Position numbers and translations under genes: made by a program. From contig CAMCVP010000001.1 of NCBI GenBank assembly GCA_945881835.1, positions 310,001 through 374,000 of the forward strand: a stretch of DNA of 64,000 bases. The letters run 5' to 3'. Origin of the DNA: Chryseobacterium gleum. GTDB taxonomy: Bacteria > Bacteroidota > Bacteroidia > Flavobacteriales_D > Sanyastnellaceae. Shown in pieces: positions 5,045-20,916 of this stretch (position 1 is the first letter of the stretch; each line of letters begins with the position of its first letter). A model generated the notes under the pieces. It was not told the origin of the DNA, did not search any database, and worked only from the letters and a program-made list of their open reading frames with translations.

Positions 5045-8000
5045 ATGATGAAACGTATATTCTCTTTAACCTTTTCGTGTTTAATTTCTTTTAGCCTCTT
5101 CGCTCAAGAAGATCCCATGTGGACAGATTTTATGCATAGTGATATTTCTGTTTTTGATTTTATTGAGGAAATGAATGAAGCGTGGCCGCAACGCCCAACC
5201 GAACGCGGACAAGGATACAAGCCATTGGAACGTTTTAAGTGGTTAATGGAAACGCATGCCGATGAGAATGGTAAAGTGCTAAACGGAAGAGAGACCATAG
5301 AGTTGTGGACCGCTTTGAAGAATTACACCGGTCAGCGCTCCGTTTCCGGCAATTGGCAACCGCTAGGTCCAATTCTCGATGGAGTGACTACACGCGAAAA
5401 CATTGAGGGTGTTGGTCGTGTCTCGTGCATTGCGTTTCATCCTACAGACGATCAGATAATGCTCGTCGGAACACCTGCCGGCGGAATTTGGAAATCAACA
5501 AACGGAGGTGCCTCTTGGTCTTCAAACACAGATCAATTGCCTACGTTAGGTGTAAGTGCAATTGCTTTCGATCCGATGAATTCCAATATTATTTATGCCG
5601 GAACTGGCGATCGTGACGCTGGAGATTCCCCTGGAATGGGAATGCTTCGAAGCGATGACGGTGGCGAAACATGGAATTTTGTGAACACCGGAATTTCAAC
5701 ACGAACAGTTGGAGATATTATTGTTTGTGAAGATCAGGCAGGCAGCATTGTTATTGCAACTGATCTTGGAATTCGCAGATCAATTGATGGAGGAAACACA
5801 TGGACACAGGCTTCTTCGAATACGTTTGACTATAAAGATTTGGCAAGACATCCGACTGCTCCAAACATTCTTTACGCAACGGGTGCAGGAAGATTTTATC
5901 GCAGTGAAGACTTCGGATTAAGTTGGACACAGAGCAACAACGGTATGAGCAATGGCACGCGCATGTGTGTCTCTGTAAATGCCTCCGAGCCAGACGCAGT
6001 CTTTGTTTTACGCACAGGAACATATGCGTACACAGGTACATTTAAGAGTACAGACGCTGGCTTAACGTTTATGCAAATGAGCAGCACACCGAATATCATG
6101 GGCTGGTCTGCCGATGGCTCTAGCACAGGCGGACAGGCGTGGTATGACCTATGTCTTTCAGGAGATGCGCTTACACCGAATGTTATCTATTGTGGTGGAA
6201 TTCGAGTGAAGAAAAGTATAGACGGCGGAGTGACATGGCAAGACATCAACTCGAATTTTATTCATGTCGATCAGCATGAAATGGCTATTAATCCGCACAA
6301 CAATGATCTCTATGTGTGCAACGATGGGGGACTTTATCGTTATTTAAACAACAGCGAGTGGCAAGATATTTCCGATGGAATTGTAAACGGACAAATTTAC
6401 AGAATGGGCCAATCTCCGCATGATGGCTCAAGAGCTTTAACGGGTTTCCAGGACAATGGTACTGCGGAGTTTCAGGGGGCGCGTTGGGTAAGAACTGGAG
6501 GAGGAGATGGATTCGAATGTATGTATGATTACGAAGAAGAGGGACGCAGGTACAGCAGTATCTATTACGGTGATTTGTACAGAACTTCAAATAACTACAT
6601 CAATCAGAAATTTGCTGGTAACGGAACAAATGAAATGACCGAAGAAGGGGCGTGGAGCACACCGTATTGCTTGCACCCAGAGAGCAGTTCTACCATGTTT
6701 GTTGGAATGAAGAACATTTGGAGATCGAAGAACATTAAGCACGTTGAAAAGGATTCGATTATTTGGGAGAAAATATCAACGAATTTTTTAAGCGCGAATA
6801 CAACGGATTGCAATCAGATAAGACCACACTACACGAAAGGAAATGTGTTGTACGCATCGAAGGGATCTCGTAAATTGGGAAGAACCGATAACGCCATGGC
6901 CGATACGGTAGTTTGGCAAAACATTAGCACGTTTTTGCCGAATGCAGTAGTTGCAGTTAACGCCATTGAAACACACAAAACAGATTCTCTTATTGTATAT
7001 ATCGGTTTCAACAAAAATGTGTACAAAAGTTTAACGGGCGGTACTTCATGGACGCTCATGACACCGAATTTGCCAGACGTTGCGGTGAATACTCTTGTTA
7101 CAGACACTTCGTCGGTACTTGAGAATTTATATATCGGAACCGATTTAGGAATTTATTATTGGGATGCAAGCATGACGGATTGGGTGAATTTTTCATCAGG
7201 ATTTCCATACGCTTCGCGTGTAACGGAATTGGAGATTTCGTATGATTCTCCGAAACGTATTCGTGCTTCAACCTACGGAAGAGGATTGTGGGAAAGTGAT
7301 TTGTATAGCCCTGAGACGAATGTATTCCCGACAAGCGCTGTATGGAACTCACCGAATACAACCGGTGAGGTTATCGGCACTTTCGATGCTGAAATTTTCT
7401 TCTATCGCAACCTTCAAAACATAGATGTTACAGATCTTTCGGTCTCTGATTTTTATATTGAAAATGGAACAGTGAATGCTGTAAGCGGCGGCCCTTCGAA
7501 CTATACAATAAATATTACACCAACAACTTTTGGACAAGTTAAGGTGGCTCTTCCAAGTAACTCTGCGATAGACAATTTCTTCACCGGAAATTCTGCAAGT
7601 GATACTTTGAAATTGGTATTTATGGAAGCACCAGCAGCATTTGGAAGTAAAGGTCCGGGTGGTGTTGGAGATGCAGATGATTTGGCATTTTGGATGCGCG
7701 CAGATAAAGGAGCGCTCTTGAATGGAGCACTTTCAGCGAACGATGGGGATCCTGTTTATATCTGGCAAGATCAAAGTGGAAACAACAGTTCAGCTTCGCA
7801 AGGAAGCGTGAATCAGCGTCCAACGTTTGTTGCGAACGACGGGGTATACACTCGCCCCGGAATTCAATTCGACGGTGAAAATGACTTCTTGCAAATGAAT
7901 GATGTTTTAGGTGGAAGAAGCACCAGTGCTTACTGTGTGGTTGAAACAGATTCGATTTTGTTCAATGATCACGGATGGTTCGCCAGTGCCCGTGTTCCGA

Positions 8001-9091
8001 ATGGGTACCTTCTTCACCCTTGGAAAAACGACTACTACTACCACGGTGAAGTTTTAGATTTAGAAAGTAATTATTCCGGCTCGCCAATTTTTTATATCGG
8101 CGAAGCTACTTCACCACACATATACGGACTTATATACGAGCAAGACGATTTGCATCAATTGTTCTATACCATTTTCGATGATCATCTTTATCCTTTCCCA
8201 GGCGTGAACATCGGTGCACGCGACAACACGACTCCGATTGACATTCGTTTCGGATGGGATTTTGACGATCGCTTTGGTAAAGGAAGAATGGGCGAGAATA
8301 TTCTCTACAAAAGAAGGCTTCACCTTTCGCAACACATTATTGTAAACAATTATTTGGCGGTTAAATACGGAATGGATTTGGGCCTACAGGCTCGTTACTT
8401 CCATCCGAATTATGCGGAAGAAATTATTGGTGTGGGACAAGAAAATGTGGGCGACAAACACGAAGTTGCCCAAGGATTGGGAGAGCTGGAAATCAGTGCT
8501 TCGGGCACCATGTCCGATGGGAATTATTTCTTGGTTGGAAGCGATGTGAACGGAATGAATGTGAGCAATGCTGTCTATCCGTTTATCTCGAATCGAATTG
8601 AACGCACATATGCCTTTACACGCACGGGAGAGCCCTTTGCTACAACGTTACGCATTCAAGCTTCGGACTTGATAGGGTTGAATGAAGTGAATGTTATCTT
8701 GAGCGAATCGGAAAGCTTCAATATATCTTCTTCGTTGCAAGTTTATCCGATGACCTTGGTGGGTGATGCGTACGAAGTTACAGTGCAATTTCCTGCATCG
8801 GGCGTTTTTACCATTGGAGAAACACCAGCCATTAATGTGATTGAGAATGCATTGAATCAAGTGTCAGTATTCCCGGTTCCTGCAAATAACAAATTGAATG
8901 TAAATGTTGGACATGATGTGTTGAATGATACATTCTATGCAGTGTATACAGCAGACGGAAAACAAGTGATGAGCGGAAGAATTACTTCTTCGCAGCAGCA
9001 AATTGATTTAATGTCGATAGCGTCAGGATTTTATGTTTTGCATATCCAGGATAAAGGATCGGTTGTGAAAAGGGACTTTATAAAATTGTAA
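5045..9091 (+). CDS. Exported multi-domain propeller/lectin protein with T9SS type A sorting domain
   Basis: About 1,348 residues. The likely start is the ATG at 5045 or 5048, giving the signal peptide MKRIFSLTFSCLISFSLFAQ; a longer frame begins at 5024. The first ~750 residues carry BNR/sortilin-like propeller repeats (several 'STNGGASW', 'SIDGGNTW' Asp-box-like motifs). Around residues 880-1120 lies the LamG/concanavalin-like module usual in T9SS cargo ('ADDLAFWMRADKG', 'WQDQSGNN', 'YLAVKYGMDLG'). The end is a type A C-terminal domain ('VFPVPANNKLNV', 'GFYVLHIQDKG'). It is expected to cross the outer membrane by T9SS and be released or anchored at the surface. The substrate is unknown. It is a paralogue in layout of the protein at 32893. 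Confidence 0.92.
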   Translation: MMKRIFSLTFSCLISFSLFAQEDPMWTDFMHSDISVFDFIEEMNEAWPQRPTERGQGYKPLERFKWLMETHADENGKVLNGRETIELWTALKNYTGQRSVSGNWQPLGPILDGVTTRENIEGVGRVSCIAFHPTDDQIMLVGTPAGGIWKSTNGGASWSSNTDQLPTLGVSAIAFDPMNSNIIYAGTGDRDAGDSPGMGMLRSDDGGETWNFVNTGISTRTVGDIIVCEDQAGSIVIATDLGIRRSIDGGNTWTQASSNTFDYKDLARHPTAPNILYATGAGRFYRSEDFGLSWTQSNNGMSNGTRMCVSVNASEPDAVFVLRTGTYAYTGTFKSTDAGLTFMQMSSTPNIMGWSADGSSTGGQAWYDLCLSGDALTPNVIYCGGIRVKKSIDGGVTWQDINSNFIHVDQHEMAINPHNNDLYVCNDGGLYRYLNNSEWQDISDGIVNGQIYRMGQSPHDGSRALTGFQDNGTAEFQGARWVRTGGGDGFECMYDYEEEGRRYSSIYYGDLYRTSNNYINQKFAGNGTNEMTEEGAWSTPYCLHPESSSTMFVGMKNIWRSKNIKHVEKDSIIWEKISTNFLSANTTDCNQIRPHYTKGNVLYASKGSRKLGRTDNAMADTVVWQNISTFLPNAVVAVNAIETHKTDSLIVYIGFNKNVYKSLTGGTSWTLMTPNLPDVAVNTLVTDTSSVLENLYIGTDLGIYYWDASMTDWVNFSSGFPYASRVTELEISYDSPKRIRASTYGRGLWESDLYSPETNVFPTSAVWNSPNTTGEVIGTFDAEIFFYRNLQNIDVTDLSVSDFYIENGTVNAVSGGPSNYTINITPTTFGQVKVALPSNSAIDNFFTGNSASDTLKLVFMEAPAAFGSKGPGGVGDADDLAFWMRADKGALLNGALSANDGDPVYIWQDQSGNNSSASQGSVNQRPTFVANDGVYTRPGIQFDGENDFLQMNDVLGGRSTSAYCVVETDSILFNDHGWFASARVPNGYLLHPWKNDYYYHGEVLDLESNYSGSPIFYIGEATSPHIYGLIYEQDDLHQLFYTIFDDHLYPFPGVNIGARDNTTPIDIRFGWDFDDRFGKGRMGENILYKRRLHLSQHIIVNNYLAVKYGMDLGLQARYFHPNYAEEIIGVGQENVGDKHEVAQGLGELEISASGTMSDGNYFLVGSDVNGMNVSNAVYPFISNRIERTYAFTRTGEPFATTLRIQASDLIGLNEVNVILSESESFNISSSLQVYPMTLVGDAYEVTVQFPASGVFTIGETPAINVIENALNQVSVFPVPANNKLNVNVGHDVLNDTFYAVYTADGKQVMSGRITSSQQQIDLMSIASGFYVLHIQDKGSVVKRDFIKL

Positions 9092-18861: not shown

Positions 18862-18878
18862 ATTAAGATTGTCTTAAT
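18862..18878. promoter_or_regulatory. Palindrome upstream of the peptide/JmjC cassette
   Basis: ATTAAGA-TTG-TCTTAAT is a perfect 7-bp inverted repeat with a 3-bp centre, 25 bp after the fucosidase stop and 95 bp before the peptide start at 18973. It has no T-run, so it fits an operator better than a terminator. No clear TAnnTTTG box is seen between it and 18973. Confidence 0.4.
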
Positions 18879-18972
18879 ACAGGGTTCGCAAATCAAATAA
18901 AATTACTACTTACGGAGTATTTCCAAGTGAAGGTTAATACGGCAATTTTGCTGTAAACATTAATCATTACCT

Positions 18973-19260
18973 ATGGAAAACAAACCAACTCTTGTCGATT
19001 CAGACGTTCGCACCGCGGATGTGAAGAAGACGACGAATTCAATTTATTCCTTAAAACTAAGCTCCGTTGCGGTTGCCTTGGCGCTAACGACCATGTCAGT
19101 TGGAATCACGGGCTGTGTAGACAGTGATGTAAGCACCTATGGTGATCCAGCAGCTGATAGCTACGATTCTGGTGCTTACGACTTAGGTGCATGGGCAGAT
19201 TCTTACGATTATGGAAATTACGACACGAACGATTCAGATGTTACGCGATACGCGGACTAA
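18973..19260 (+). CDS. Asp/Tyr-rich repeat peptide, probable substrate of the adjacent JmjC oxygenase
   Basis: This 95-residue protein has a polar N-terminus (1-28), a hydrophobic segment (29-47, ending 'MSVGITGC'; Cys48 fits a lipobox) and an acidic, Tyr/Asp/Gly-rich tail. The motif DSDV occurs three times: 'DSDVRTAD' (9-16), 'DSDVSTYGD' (50-58) and 'DSDVTRYAD' (87-95, the very C-terminus). The tail also has two copies of ADSYDxGxYD (61-70 and 75-84). After Cys48 there are 12 Asp and 7 Tyr in 48 residues. An n-region of 28 residues is long for a lipoprotein. The next gene starts 9 bp downstream. A RiPP-like precursor or a modified surface lipoprotein are both possible; I recognise no described family. 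Confidence 0.8.
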   Translation: MENKPTLVDSDVRTADVKKTTNSIYSLKLSSVAVALALTTMSVGITGCVDSDVSTYGDPAADSYDSGAYDLGAWADSYDYGNYDTNDSDVTRYAD

Positions 19261-19269
19261 TTATTCGAT

Positions 19270-20457
19270 ATGAGGGCCCCTGTCTATTCTTTTCCTTGGA
19301 TCATTGCTCCGTTGAGTTTTGAAGAATTTGAATCGGAATATTTCGAAAAAAAATTCATTCACATCAAGCGCAACAGCAGCGATTATTTTTCTCCTGCGCT
19401 TTCTTATCAGTCAATTGAAGATTACTTATACAACGAGACACTTAAGTTTCCTTCAACACGATTGACGAATGCAAAGGAAGATGTTCCGAGTGAAAAGTAC
19501 GTTATGGGTGAGAAGGTTTTGACATCGAACTTATTGAAGCATTTTGTAGAAGGCTCTACCATTGTGCTGTCTGGTTTACATGAACACGTGGCAGGGCTGG
19601 GCGAATTGGTTAGCAACTTGTCGAAGCAATTTTATCAGCGCTTTCAAACGAACGTATACATTACTCCAAAAGGCAGTCAAGGATTTAAAGTGCACTACGA
19701 TACGCACGATGTTTTTGTACTTCAAATTCATGGAAAAAAAACGTGGAAGATTTATAAAGACAACCCCGTTTCACTTCCAAACAAGCTCATGGAATTTGCT
19801 CCTGGTAAATATGAAGTGGGTGAGGTGGAAGAGACCATCCTAGCTGAAGCTGGCGATCTTATTTACATTCCGCGTGGTATCATGCATCAGGCAGAGACGA
19901 ACGATGAAATGTCAATTCATGTGACCTTAGGCATGTTGGGTTACACCTGGACAGATTTGCTCATTGAGAGTGTTTTAGAGTTTTCAAAGACGAACGACTC
20001 CTTAAGAAAATTTTTGCCGCGCGAGATGTTGCGCAATGGTGTTAAAGAAGATCATCAGCAATATTTCTCTGAGTTGTTCTCCCTTATGTCATCATCTATA
20101 TCGCTTCAAGACAGTGTGAATAGATTCAAGCGTGAAATTTCTGCGAGCCAAAAAATAAATATCAAAAATCTTTTGACGCAAGGCGATTCGATTTCAGATA
20201 TAGGTGAGAGCAGTGTATTTGAAGTTCGTCAAAACGTTCTCTTTTTAATCAAAAGAAAAGGAGAGAATGTGGTTTTAGAGTGGCAAGGCAAGGAAGTCGA
20301 GTTTCCCATGTTTATGGATCCGGCGATTCATTTTATTGCGAAGATAAAAGAGCCATTTCAGCTTGCTGCAGTTCCAGATTGTGTTGACCAAAACGGTAAA
20401 ATAGTTTTCGTGACTCGTTTAATAAAGGAAGGGCTTCTTTCCATCAAAATCAACTAA
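19270..20457 (+). CDS. JmjC/cupin-8 Fe(II)/2-oxoglutarate oxygenase, ROXA-like
   Basis: This 395-residue protein has the layout of bacterial ribosomal oxygenases (YcfD/ROXA, which hydroxylate an Arg of ribosomal protein L16): a JmjC double-stranded beta-helix, a dimerisation helical part and a C-terminal winged-helix-like domain. The metal triad is visible: His142 and Asp144 in 'KVHYDTHDVFVLQIHGKKTW', and His206 in 'IPRGIMHQAET'. It should therefore be an active hydroxylase. ROXA genes are not normally attached to a small repeat protein, so the 9-bp spacing from the Asp-rich peptide suggests that peptide, not L16, as substrate; this is inference. A 16-bp gap leads to the LTxxQ-like gene. Confidence 0.88.
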   Translation: MRAPVYSFPWIIAPLSFEEFESEYFEKKFIHIKRNSSDYFSPALSYQSIEDYLYNETLKFPSTRLTNAKEDVPSEKYVMGEKVLTSNLLKHFVEGSTIVLSGLHEHVAGLGELVSNLSKQFYQRFQTNVYITPKGSQGFKVHYDTHDVFVLQIHGKKTWKIYKDNPVSLPNKLMEFAPGKYEVGEVEETILAEAGDLIYIPRGIMHQAETNDEMSIHVTLGMLGYTWTDLLIESVLEFSKTNDSLRKFLPREMLRNGVKEDHQQYFSELFSLMSSSISLQDSVNRFKREISASQKINIKNLLTQGDSISDIGESSVFEVRQNVLFLIKRKGENVVLEWQGKEVEFPMFMDPAIHFIAKIKEPFQLAAVPDCVDQNGKIVFVTRLIKEGLLSIKIN

Positions 20458-20473
20458 CAAAAATTATAATCAA

Positions 20474-20860
20474 ATGAAAAAGAAACTCATTATTTTCTTC
20501 AGCTTGGCACTACTCGTAACAGGCGGAATTGTAATTGCACAGGGTGTAATCGCAAACAACAAAAAAAGTAGAGTGGTTGCTGAAAGAACCGAAAAGCAAA
20601 CCAATAAAATGGCGGATATCTATGCACTAACGCCAGCACAAAAAGAGGCAATCTTCAAGGTGAACCAAGAATTTCAGAAGCAACTGGCTGACTTAGTCGC
20701 AGATTACAAAGGTGCTCCAGATTTCGATGTTAGAGAGGAAGCGATTTTGTATTCACACGAGCAAAATGCGTTTGCTATTTTAGATGAAACTCAAAAAGCA
20801 AAGTGGCTTGCAGCCAAGGAATACCGTCGCACTCACCCAAGAGAGCAGCCGCAGAAATAG
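20474..20860 (+). CDS. Exported Spy/LTxxQ-like helical protein
   Basis: This 128-residue protein has a signal peptide or N-terminal anchor (about 1-22, ending 'GGIVIAQG') and a charged helical body. 'YALTPAQKEAIFKVNQEF' and 'ILDETQKAKWLAAKEYRR' follow the paired L-T-xx-Q and L-xx-x-Q-K pattern of Spy/CpxP-type periplasmic proteins, which act as chaperones or stress sensors. It is third in the cassette after the repeat peptide and the JmjC oxygenase, with 16 bp between it and the oxygenase, and it is followed by a strong terminator. A role in handling the exported peptide is plausible but inferred. Confidence 0.78.
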   Translation: MKKKLIIFFSLALLVTGGIVIAQGVIANNKKSRVVAERTEKQTNKMADIYALTPAQKEAIFKVNQEFQKQLADLVADYKGAPDFDVREEAILYSHEQNAFAILDETQKAKWLAAKEYRRTHPREQPQK

Positions 20861-20883
20861 TTTTAGTTTTTTTTAGTACAGTG

Positions 20884-20909
20884 AAAACAGTCACGAAAGT
20901 GACTGTTTT
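20884..20909. terminator. Bidirectional terminator closing the JmjC cassette
   Basis: Perfect 11-bp stem AAAACAGTCAC / GTGACTGTTTT with a GAAA loop and further T residues. It lies between the convergent LTxxQ-like gene and the gene at 20917, 7 bp from the latter's stop, and has A and T runs on both sides. Confidence 0.9.
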
Positions 20910-20916
20910 TTTATTG

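Follow-up and report, generated by a model that had tools for sequence, protein, structure and literature searches.

What does a small Asp-rich peptide gene do directly upstream of a gene for a JmjC oxygenase? The question is raised by a three-gene cassette in a 64,000-nucleotide stretch of DNA (the window) filed under Chryseobacterium gleum (assembly GCA_945881835.1, 2.53 Mb in 38 contigs; contig CAMCVP010000001.1, forward strand, positions 310,001 to 374,000). The cassette consists of three open reading frames (ORFs), all on the + strand, with gaps of 9 bp between the peptide and oxygenase genes and 16 bp between the oxygenase gene and the third gene, just as an earlier reading of the DNA (the sequence-only reading) had described. 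We found that the peptide and the oxygenase are conserved as a pair. Comparisons of the sequences make it probable, in our judgment, that the product of the cassette is a lipopeptide modified by the JmjC under guidance of a leader, with Asp the most likely hydroxylation target. The coupling of the genes is well supported; we infer the substrate status of the peptide, the Asp target, docking through the C-terminal domain, the surface location and metal binding. The features of the cassette, by window coordinates, are as follows (genomes and loci other than the window carry the prefixes G and L).

18973-19260, + strand: predicted precursor lipoprotein peptide, 95 amino acids (homologue alignment; dN/dS 0.016 against G006, at near-saturated dS)
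18991-19014, + strand: putative leader motif LVDSDVRT at residues 7-14 (its consensus is shared by all 11 peptides)
19063-19116, + strand: lipoprotein signal, a hydrophobic stretch and lipobox-like I-T-G-C ending in Cys48 (sequence; alignment by eye)
19114-19257, + strand: predicted mature lipopeptide, 48 residues with 12 Asp, 0 Glu and 0 His (composition)
19270-20457, + strand: JmjC 2-oxoglutarate/Fe(II) oxygenase, NO66/MINA-like, 395 amino acids (Pfam, PDB relatives, alignment)
19636-19956, + strand: JmjC_2 domain (Pfam)
19693-19695, 19699-19701 and 19885-19887, + strand: metal ligands H142, D144 and H206 (alignment)
20218-20454, + strand: C-terminal domain, probably a winged-helix domain of the ribosomal oxygenase (ROX) family and a candidate leader binder (position; bbb-aaa in low-confidence models)
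20474-20860, + strand: exported helical protein, 128 amino acids, containing the motifs LTPAQ and LDETQ; candidate periplasmic partner (sequence; kept in 6 of 11 pairs)

Conservation of the pair in related genomes had been set beforehand as the test of the idea, and the pair was conserved. We found 11 peptide-JmjC pairs in 10 genomes (G000, G006, G046, G048, G261, G283, G363 twice, G489, G973 and G974) that span three families of one class, and 6 of the 11 are full trios. A small encoded precursor adjoining a modifying-type enzyme and conserved jointly with it, taken here as one mark of a ribosomally synthesized and post-translationally modified peptide (RiPP), was present in all 11 pairs. Genomes with a JmjC relative numbered 5 of 114 in the family, 7 of 299 in the order (8 places, including the eukaryote-looking L015), 13 of 395 in the class (cut-off 1e-10) and 5 of 296 in the phylum (cut-off 1e-30), together with 2 of 7 around G363 and 6 of 240 around G261; these genome sets overlap. 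A profile of 7 JmjC sequences (A1) added G363a, G363b and G489, and a profile of 9 (A5) added G973 and G974. Each of these five was found by a profile that did not include it and matched at E<1e-110, and all five had the peptide beside them. G973 is closely related to G261 and is therefore less independent. For a twelfth JmjC of the group (G009), which starts at the edge of its contig, the gene upstream is out of view.

Fifteen weaker JmjC places from the class, phylum and G261 searches were surrounded by 25 stretches, some of only 3-4 kb, in which the peptide profile had no match at E≤0.01; the line dividing strong from weak JmjC matches was set after the results were known. As a control, the same script recovered the peptides in 9 of 9 carrier stretches, including G973 (1.3e-25) and G974 (2.1e-15), whose peptides are outside the profile. 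Searching the 395 class genomes with the peptide profile gave matches in 21 genomes at E≤0.01. Strong matches (E<1e-15) occurred at 5 places in 4 genomes, all members of the profile. That search gave no strong peptide without a JmjC, and none beyond those that the JmjC search had given. The weaker matches in 17 genomes (E 4.1e-6 or weaker; loci L042-L058) were rejected, as none showed the leader-lipobox-Asp-tail pattern. The match in G041 (E 1e-4) is a different small lipoprotein-like ORF and was left out of the counts.

Searches of other collections returned little. One scan of viral contigs gave one distant match and another gave none; plasmids searched for the peptide and phages searched for the JmjC gave none. 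The JmjC matched 77 plasmid records, all below 60% identity (31% was the best among the 20 of 77 listed), and a search of genome contigs gave two loci, both of the same genus. L015 (G283:C6, ~114700) is a eukaryote-looking, NO66-like ORF on a 604-kb contig that also bears a bacterial cassette. It was rejected as a bacterial relative and may reflect an assembly chimera, contamination or transfer.

All 11 peptides share one layout in the alignment: an N-terminal motif, a lipoprotein signal running to a lipobox-like Cys, and an Asp-rich tail. For the peptide itself, neither Pfam nor NCBIfam gave a match at E≤1. The motif, with consensus L-x3-D-[VI]-x-[ST], starts at residue 7-12, ahead of the signal peptide, in every peptide. 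It was absent from the first 25 residues of all 291 other ORFs of at least 80 amino acids in 19 stretches; because the pattern was derived from the peptides themselves, this shows only that the motif is uncommon. It is a putative docking site for the enzyme. The lipobox-like Cys, judged by eye on the alignment, is in all 11 peptides, the weakest being the AGSC of G363b. The three DSDV motifs emphasized in the sequence-only reading are present in the window's peptide; the first (residues 9-12) precedes the signal peptide, which leaves two in the mature part. DSDV as a conserved feature was ruled out, since 6 of the 11 cores have none (G261, G973, G046, G048, G489 and G363b).

The peptide is a real gene under strong purifying selection. 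Between the window and G006 there were 43 synonymous and 5 nonsynonymous differences, for a ratio of nonsynonymous to synonymous rates (dN/dS) of 0.016 with dS at 1.5, close to saturation. Peptide identity exceeded enzyme identity between the window and G006 (97% vs 89%) and between G261 and G973 (89% vs 66%); G363a and G489 were the other way round (74% for the peptide vs 87% for the enzyme). The signal region of the G363b peptide (L034:2825-3091) opens with SRRGFL, unlike the other peptides. We take this to be a twin-arginine-like motif, and the G363b peptide may be exported folded.

The mature parts point to Asp as the likely target of a modification. They are 39-52 residues long with 9-14 Asp each, and the 10 distinct ones together (470 residues) have 115 Asp, 3 Glu and 0 His. 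All three Glu are at position +4 from the Cys, where a surface-export signal would sit. By comparison, Asp made up 48.6% of the acidic residues in 148 neighbouring proteins; the peptides are mutually related, so no simple probability can be attached to their low-Glu composition. We favor Asp as the target for two reasons: Asp alone among the likely target residues is plentiful (at least 9 copies) in all of the cores, and there is hardly any Glu. The residues after the Cys are [ST]-D-[DEN] in 6 of the 11, VDSD in 2, and RKAD or KKSD in 3. The known signal for surface lipoprotein export (LES) consists of SDDFE- or SDDDD-like residues behind the Cys (PMC5080379; statements from this and the other papers cited refer to the available portions of their texts).

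The same pairing could serve another chemistry, in which the JmjC acts on Tyr, Ser/Thr, Asn or Cys, or forms cross-links, rather than hydroxylating Asp. We regard this as rather unlikely. Tyr-Asp pairs are common in most cores, and each of the nine distinct cores tabulated has Ser, Thr, Cys and one or more Asn. 2-Oxoglutarate enzymes are reportedly able to macrocyclise RiPPs, going by the title of one study. However, Tyr is missing from the G363b core, Asn is present at 1-5 per core, Arg is missing from 4 of the nine (both Lys and Arg from that of G283), and His is in none. Moreover, the near-absence of Glu points to the identity of Asp, not to charge. FIH is a JmjC-fold enzyme. It hydroxylates aspartyl residues (PMC9189129).

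We propose the following course for the leader-guided modification of the lipopeptide. The JmjC oxygenase would recognise the peptide's N-terminal leader in the cytoplasm, with the enzyme's C-terminal winged-helix domain as the most likely binding site, and would hydroxylate side chains of the Asp-rich tail, most likely converting Asp to beta-hydroxyaspartate. Since the leader lies ahead of the signal peptide, leader-guided modification would need to precede export. The modified precursor would then take the ordinary lipoprotein route of export, lipidation of the lipobox Cys and cleavage by signal peptidase II. This single cut would take off leader and signal peptide together, so that a separate leader protease would be unneeded; none is in the cassette. 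The product would be an acylated, acidic lipopeptide of 39-52 residues on the outer membrane; in 6 of the 11 it would begin with C-[ST]-D-[DEN], which resembles a surface-export signal. The exported helical protein, in about half of the cassettes, would probably be a periplasmic chaperone or partner. That the JmjC modifies the peptide to give a lipoprotein or RiPP-like product had already been proposed in the sequence-only reading. The conserved pairing is consistent with that proposal, and its emphasis on DSDV as the key feature is not upheld.

One locus outside the group has a related arrangement. In G898 (L072:6708-6980 and 7085-8272) a DGDGGADG-repeat peptide, judged by eye to have no signal peptide, lies just upstream of a divergent JmjC. 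This Asp-repeat peptide provides independent support for Asp-rich substrates, and it is possibly a second, soluble type of such substrate.

The oxygenase belongs to Pfam JmjC_2 (PF08007; E 2.9e-27) and had no NCBIfam match at E≤1. H142-x-D144, H206 and Lys157 are invariant across nine aligned sequences including that of the window, so the HxD...H triad is intact, as had been noted. Its relatives in the PDB were NO66 (4.4e-43), MINA (4.8e-41), YxbC (1.1e-22) and YcfD (1.2e-5), and a Rhodothermus cupin-4 protein matched at 1.6e-4. The earlier label of ROXA-like does not hold, as NO66 and MINA match much better than YcfD, and a housekeeping ROXA was rejected on distribution and closest relatives. 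YxbC (7zcc; 1vrb, annotated as a putative asparaginyl hydroxylase), the third-best relative, differs from the cassette enzyme in its chains of 341-342 amino acids and in a match that ends at position 278 of the 394-position profile. A full-text search found no literature naming both YxbC and an oxygenase. A metagenome-assembled genome titled Chryseobacterium gleum (CAMDFE010000101.1, L012) has a JmjC 90% identical to that of the window; the title looks misassigned.

In the oxygenase, the C-terminal domain probably corresponds to the winged helix typical of ROX enzymes. Low-confidence models of the domain have secondary structure in the order bbb-aaa. ROX enzymes have a C-terminal winged-helix domain whose function is called unclear (PMC6182338), and a 2025 study (PMC12710340) describes PF08007 JmjC proteins that carry a fused RRE-like domain (RRE, RiPP recognition element) and have bacterial homologues in RiPP-like contexts. 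A Foldseek search with a poor model of a peptide-JmjC fusion listed ROX enzymes first, then McbBCD, ThcOx and PqqD at E 0.47-1.3 amid unrelated matches. The best match of the domain to the PDB by hmmsearch was AdcR, at E 0.72.

A second account leaves the peptide unmodified, as an acidic lipoprotein that binds Ca or another metal, with the JmjC sensing oxygen or iron or modifying another target and the two genes joined by regulation. Asp-only acidic windows in control proteins resemble Ca-binding repeats. In addition, genes for an FTR1 iron permease (match 1.2e-44) and a TonB receptor are directly upstream in G363a and G489. The genes there (L060:3743-10103 and L062) run on one strand: LuxR-type regulator, FTR1, 179-amino-acid protein, TonB receptor, peptide, JmjC. 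This account is quite unlikely, since it leaves the conserved motif ahead of the signal peptide unexplained, related JmjC genes are in RiPP-like contexts, and no iron genes were recognised by eye beside the other cassettes in stretches of 4-18 kb.

The iron genes bear also on what a leader-guided, modified lipopeptide might do. Beta-hydroxyaspartate siderophores bind iron (PMC10484230). By analogy, and because of the FTR1 and TonB receptor neighbours, our guess is that the lipopeptide binds a metal, iron or calcium. We offer as a tentative possibility the fuller picture of leader-guided RiPP-lipoproteins as a class of their own: a poly-beta-hydroxyaspartyl, acylated surface peptide, the ribosomally made and membrane-anchored counterpart of beta-hydroxyaspartate siderophores, would be matured by an enzyme akin to the animal ribosomal oxygenases, with its winged helix reading the leader. 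If so, the winged helix of NO66, MINA and YcfD would be a relic of peptide recognition.

A third account makes the cassette a competition module, with a modified lipopeptide that is antibacterial or a signal and the exported helical protein as immunity protein or chaperone. It is suggested by presence and absence inside a genus, shuffled gene order and grouping across families. In the 23-protein JmjC tree, the 12 linked JmjC proteins (G009 counted) fall on one side of a branch with support 99/97; an earlier tree, made before G973 and G974 were found, put 10 together at 97/97. The earlier tree included G905, G523 and the eukaryote-like row, which are very long or incomplete and were left out of the later one; G354 (L033) and a second G523 match (L036) are in neither. 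Roots are midpoints, used for drawing only. The G974 JmjC joins those of G046 and G048, from another family (100/99), and G261 and G973, of the same genus as G974, fall elsewhere in the tree; this pattern suggests that the cassette was transferred. G011 and G010 each have a cassette-free site: the two genes on either side of the window's cassette (a fucosidase gene and a 222-amino-acid gene) are adjacent there with nothing between them. Gain and loss are indistinguishable at these sites, and the cassette is present or absent as a unit. This unit behaviour and the grouping of the linked oxygenases count for the leader-guided lipopeptide as well. G007, G008 and G012 have the 222-amino-acid gene and no fucosidase or cassette within 1.5 kb, and G005 has a different neighbour.

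The third gene varies in both presence and position. It is in 6 of the 11 pairs (G000, G006, G046, G048, G283 and G974) and also adjoins the contig-edge JmjC of G009. The order is peptide-JmjC-third in G000 and G006 (JmjC-third at the contig edge of G009), third-peptide-JmjC in G046, G048 and G974, and peptide-third-JmjC in G283. Its product, described earlier as an LTxxQ-like exported protein, has a signal-like N terminus and the motifs LTPAQ and LDETQ. It had no match to Pfam LTXXQ at E≤1, so LTxxQ-like denotes a resemblance of motif and not membership in the family. A match to DUF4890 is under the cut-off (19.0 vs 29.7 bits), as is that of the G046 counterpart. We consider a competition module improbable: the cassette is without a dedicated exporter or protease, 5 of the 11 pairs lack a third gene in the stretches around them, and the peptide is more conserved than the enzyme in two within-genus pairs, unlike diversifying bacteriocins (G363a/G489 being opposite).

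That the JmjC is a ribosomal oxygenase, acting on L16 or another ribosomal protein and adjoining an unrelated small gene, is highly improbable despite the shared fold family and top PDB matches (NO66 and MINA) that are ribosomal oxygenases, given the patchy distribution (5 of 114 family genomes), the far weaker matches of the bacterial L16 hydroxylases (YcfD and the Rhodothermus protein), the linkage to the peptide, and the presence or absence of the cassette as a unit.

Several observations weigh against a leader-guided lipopeptide system. Structure prediction of the enzyme was poor: with inputs of 3-4 near-identical sequences, AlphaFold2 gave a mean predicted local distance difference test score of 30.7 for the peptide-JmjC fusion and 48.1 for the C-terminal domain alone. 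Resemblance of that domain to a leader-binding protein found no support in a Pfam search of 6 C-terminal segments for PqqD (no match), in hhalign against three discrete PqqD-like proteins (probability 5%), or in Foldseek with the poor domain model (no significant match, best E 0.40). The strong peptide matches in the class search were the profile's own rows, so that search yielded no new peptide. Control windows of 48 residues with 10 or more acidic ones numbered 66; 2 of them had at most one Glu, both resembling Ca-binding repeats. Five of the 11 mature termini are without [ST]-D-[DEN], the third gene was not found in the stretches of G261, G973, G363a, G363b and G489 (best profile E 0.69), and iron genes were recognised beside only 2 of the 11 pairs, both of one genus.

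RiPP-lipoproteins made by MNIO enzymes and JmjC hydroxylases of RiPPs are known separately; the cassette would combine them. The sequence-only reading knew of no described family with this set. We likewise found none for the JmjC-lipoprotein pair, although 2025 brought reports of MNIO hybrids (PMC12636315) and of JmjC enzymes within RiPP clusters or close to them (PMC12257519, PMC12707348, PMC12710340); a JmjC-linked lipoprotein peptide was not among the matches listed in full-text searches, which did not cover most subscription journals. MNIO enzymes make RiPP-lipoprotein hybrids (DAG-RiPPs; DybA-DybH and NedA-NedBC), and export of the modified peptides as lipoproteins was shown in the same 2025 preprint (PMC12636315). 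Like these, the cassette has a small precursor with its own signal and lipobox beside an iron oxygenase, with modification in the cytoplasm being our proposal. DAG-RiPPs use MNIO (DUF692) enzymes on Cys-containing motifs (PMC12636315), whereas the cassette has a JmjC and an Asp-rich tail. The cassette enzyme is a JmjC_2 and not an MNIO enzyme, and so falls outside that group. In addition, the preprint calls lipidated RiPPs most likely leader-independent, whereas the cassette peptides have a conserved motif ahead of the signal peptide (PMC12636315).

BipG/BpmG, the JmjC ornithine hydroxylase of biphenomycin RiPPs, hydroxylates a RiPP precursor (PMC12707348, PMC12257519). The cassette likewise pairs a JmjC enzyme with a ribosomal precursor, the side-chain hydroxylation being only proposed. 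BipG/BpmG differs in acting on Orn as one step of a multi-enzyme antibiotic pathway, with no lipoprotein export described in the available portions of those papers. The JmjC proteins of PMC12710340 share PF08007, with an RRE-like domain where the cassette enzyme has a candidate leader-binding domain; they are fish and algal proteins, in the available text without precursors or such a lipoprotein peptide. NO66, MINA and YcfD (PMC6182338) combine JmjC with a C-terminal winged helix, as the cassette enzyme probably does, and NO66 and MINA are its top PDB matches. Their substrates are ribosomal proteins, hydroxylated at His or Arg (PMC6182338), whereas the cassette enzyme is linked to a peptide and His is absent from the cores.

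If our proposal is true, JmjC oxygenases would be a further type of enzyme that makes lipidated RiPPs, of which few are known, and the expectation that these are mostly leader-independent (PMC12636315) would be contradicted. With one enzyme and one peptide, the cassette is an unusually small test system, bearing on the role of the ribosomal-oxygenase winged-helix domain and on whether bacteria make beta-hydroxyaspartate-rich surface peptides for metal binding.

Other JmjC genes had RiPP-like surroundings. Eight loci with Bacteroidota-type JmjC genes of the wider family (L076, L077, L078, L079, L080, L081, L099 and L100) have small GG-bearing peptides or PqqD-like, Asn-synthetase-like or HprK-like neighbours. 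G328, G422, G452 and G493 have Asn-synthetase-like and PqqD-like genes and small GG-bearing peptides near less related JmjC genes, and G500 has repeated leader-type small proteins. The neighbours were named mostly by eye; the PqqD of G422 alone was checked by Pfam. On that basis, the eight loci appear to be several uncharacterised JmjC RiPP settings. These surroundings are consistent with the account in PMC12710340.

In G046 (L019:4670-7233), Radical SAM/DUF3641 and methyltransferase genes are directly 5' of the trio. They are presumably arsenic-type ArsS/ArsM.

Two further features flank the cassette in the window.

20883-20910, + strand: terminator-like stem-loop and T-tract (hairpin scan)
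18900-18922, + strand: upstream element AAATTACTACTTACGGAGTATTT, a possible promoter or operator (near-identity in G006, two sequences only)

The first, 3' of the third gene, has a 12-pair stem followed by a T-tract, in agreement with the strong terminator proposed earlier. The count of such sites is not significant by itself, with 4 seen between 17800 and 22000 vs 3.6 expected from shuffles. An inverted repeat at 18862-18878 was ruled out as an operator, as it is not conserved in G006. The second, 5' of the peptide gene, is nearly identical in G006 although the surrounding region has diverged.

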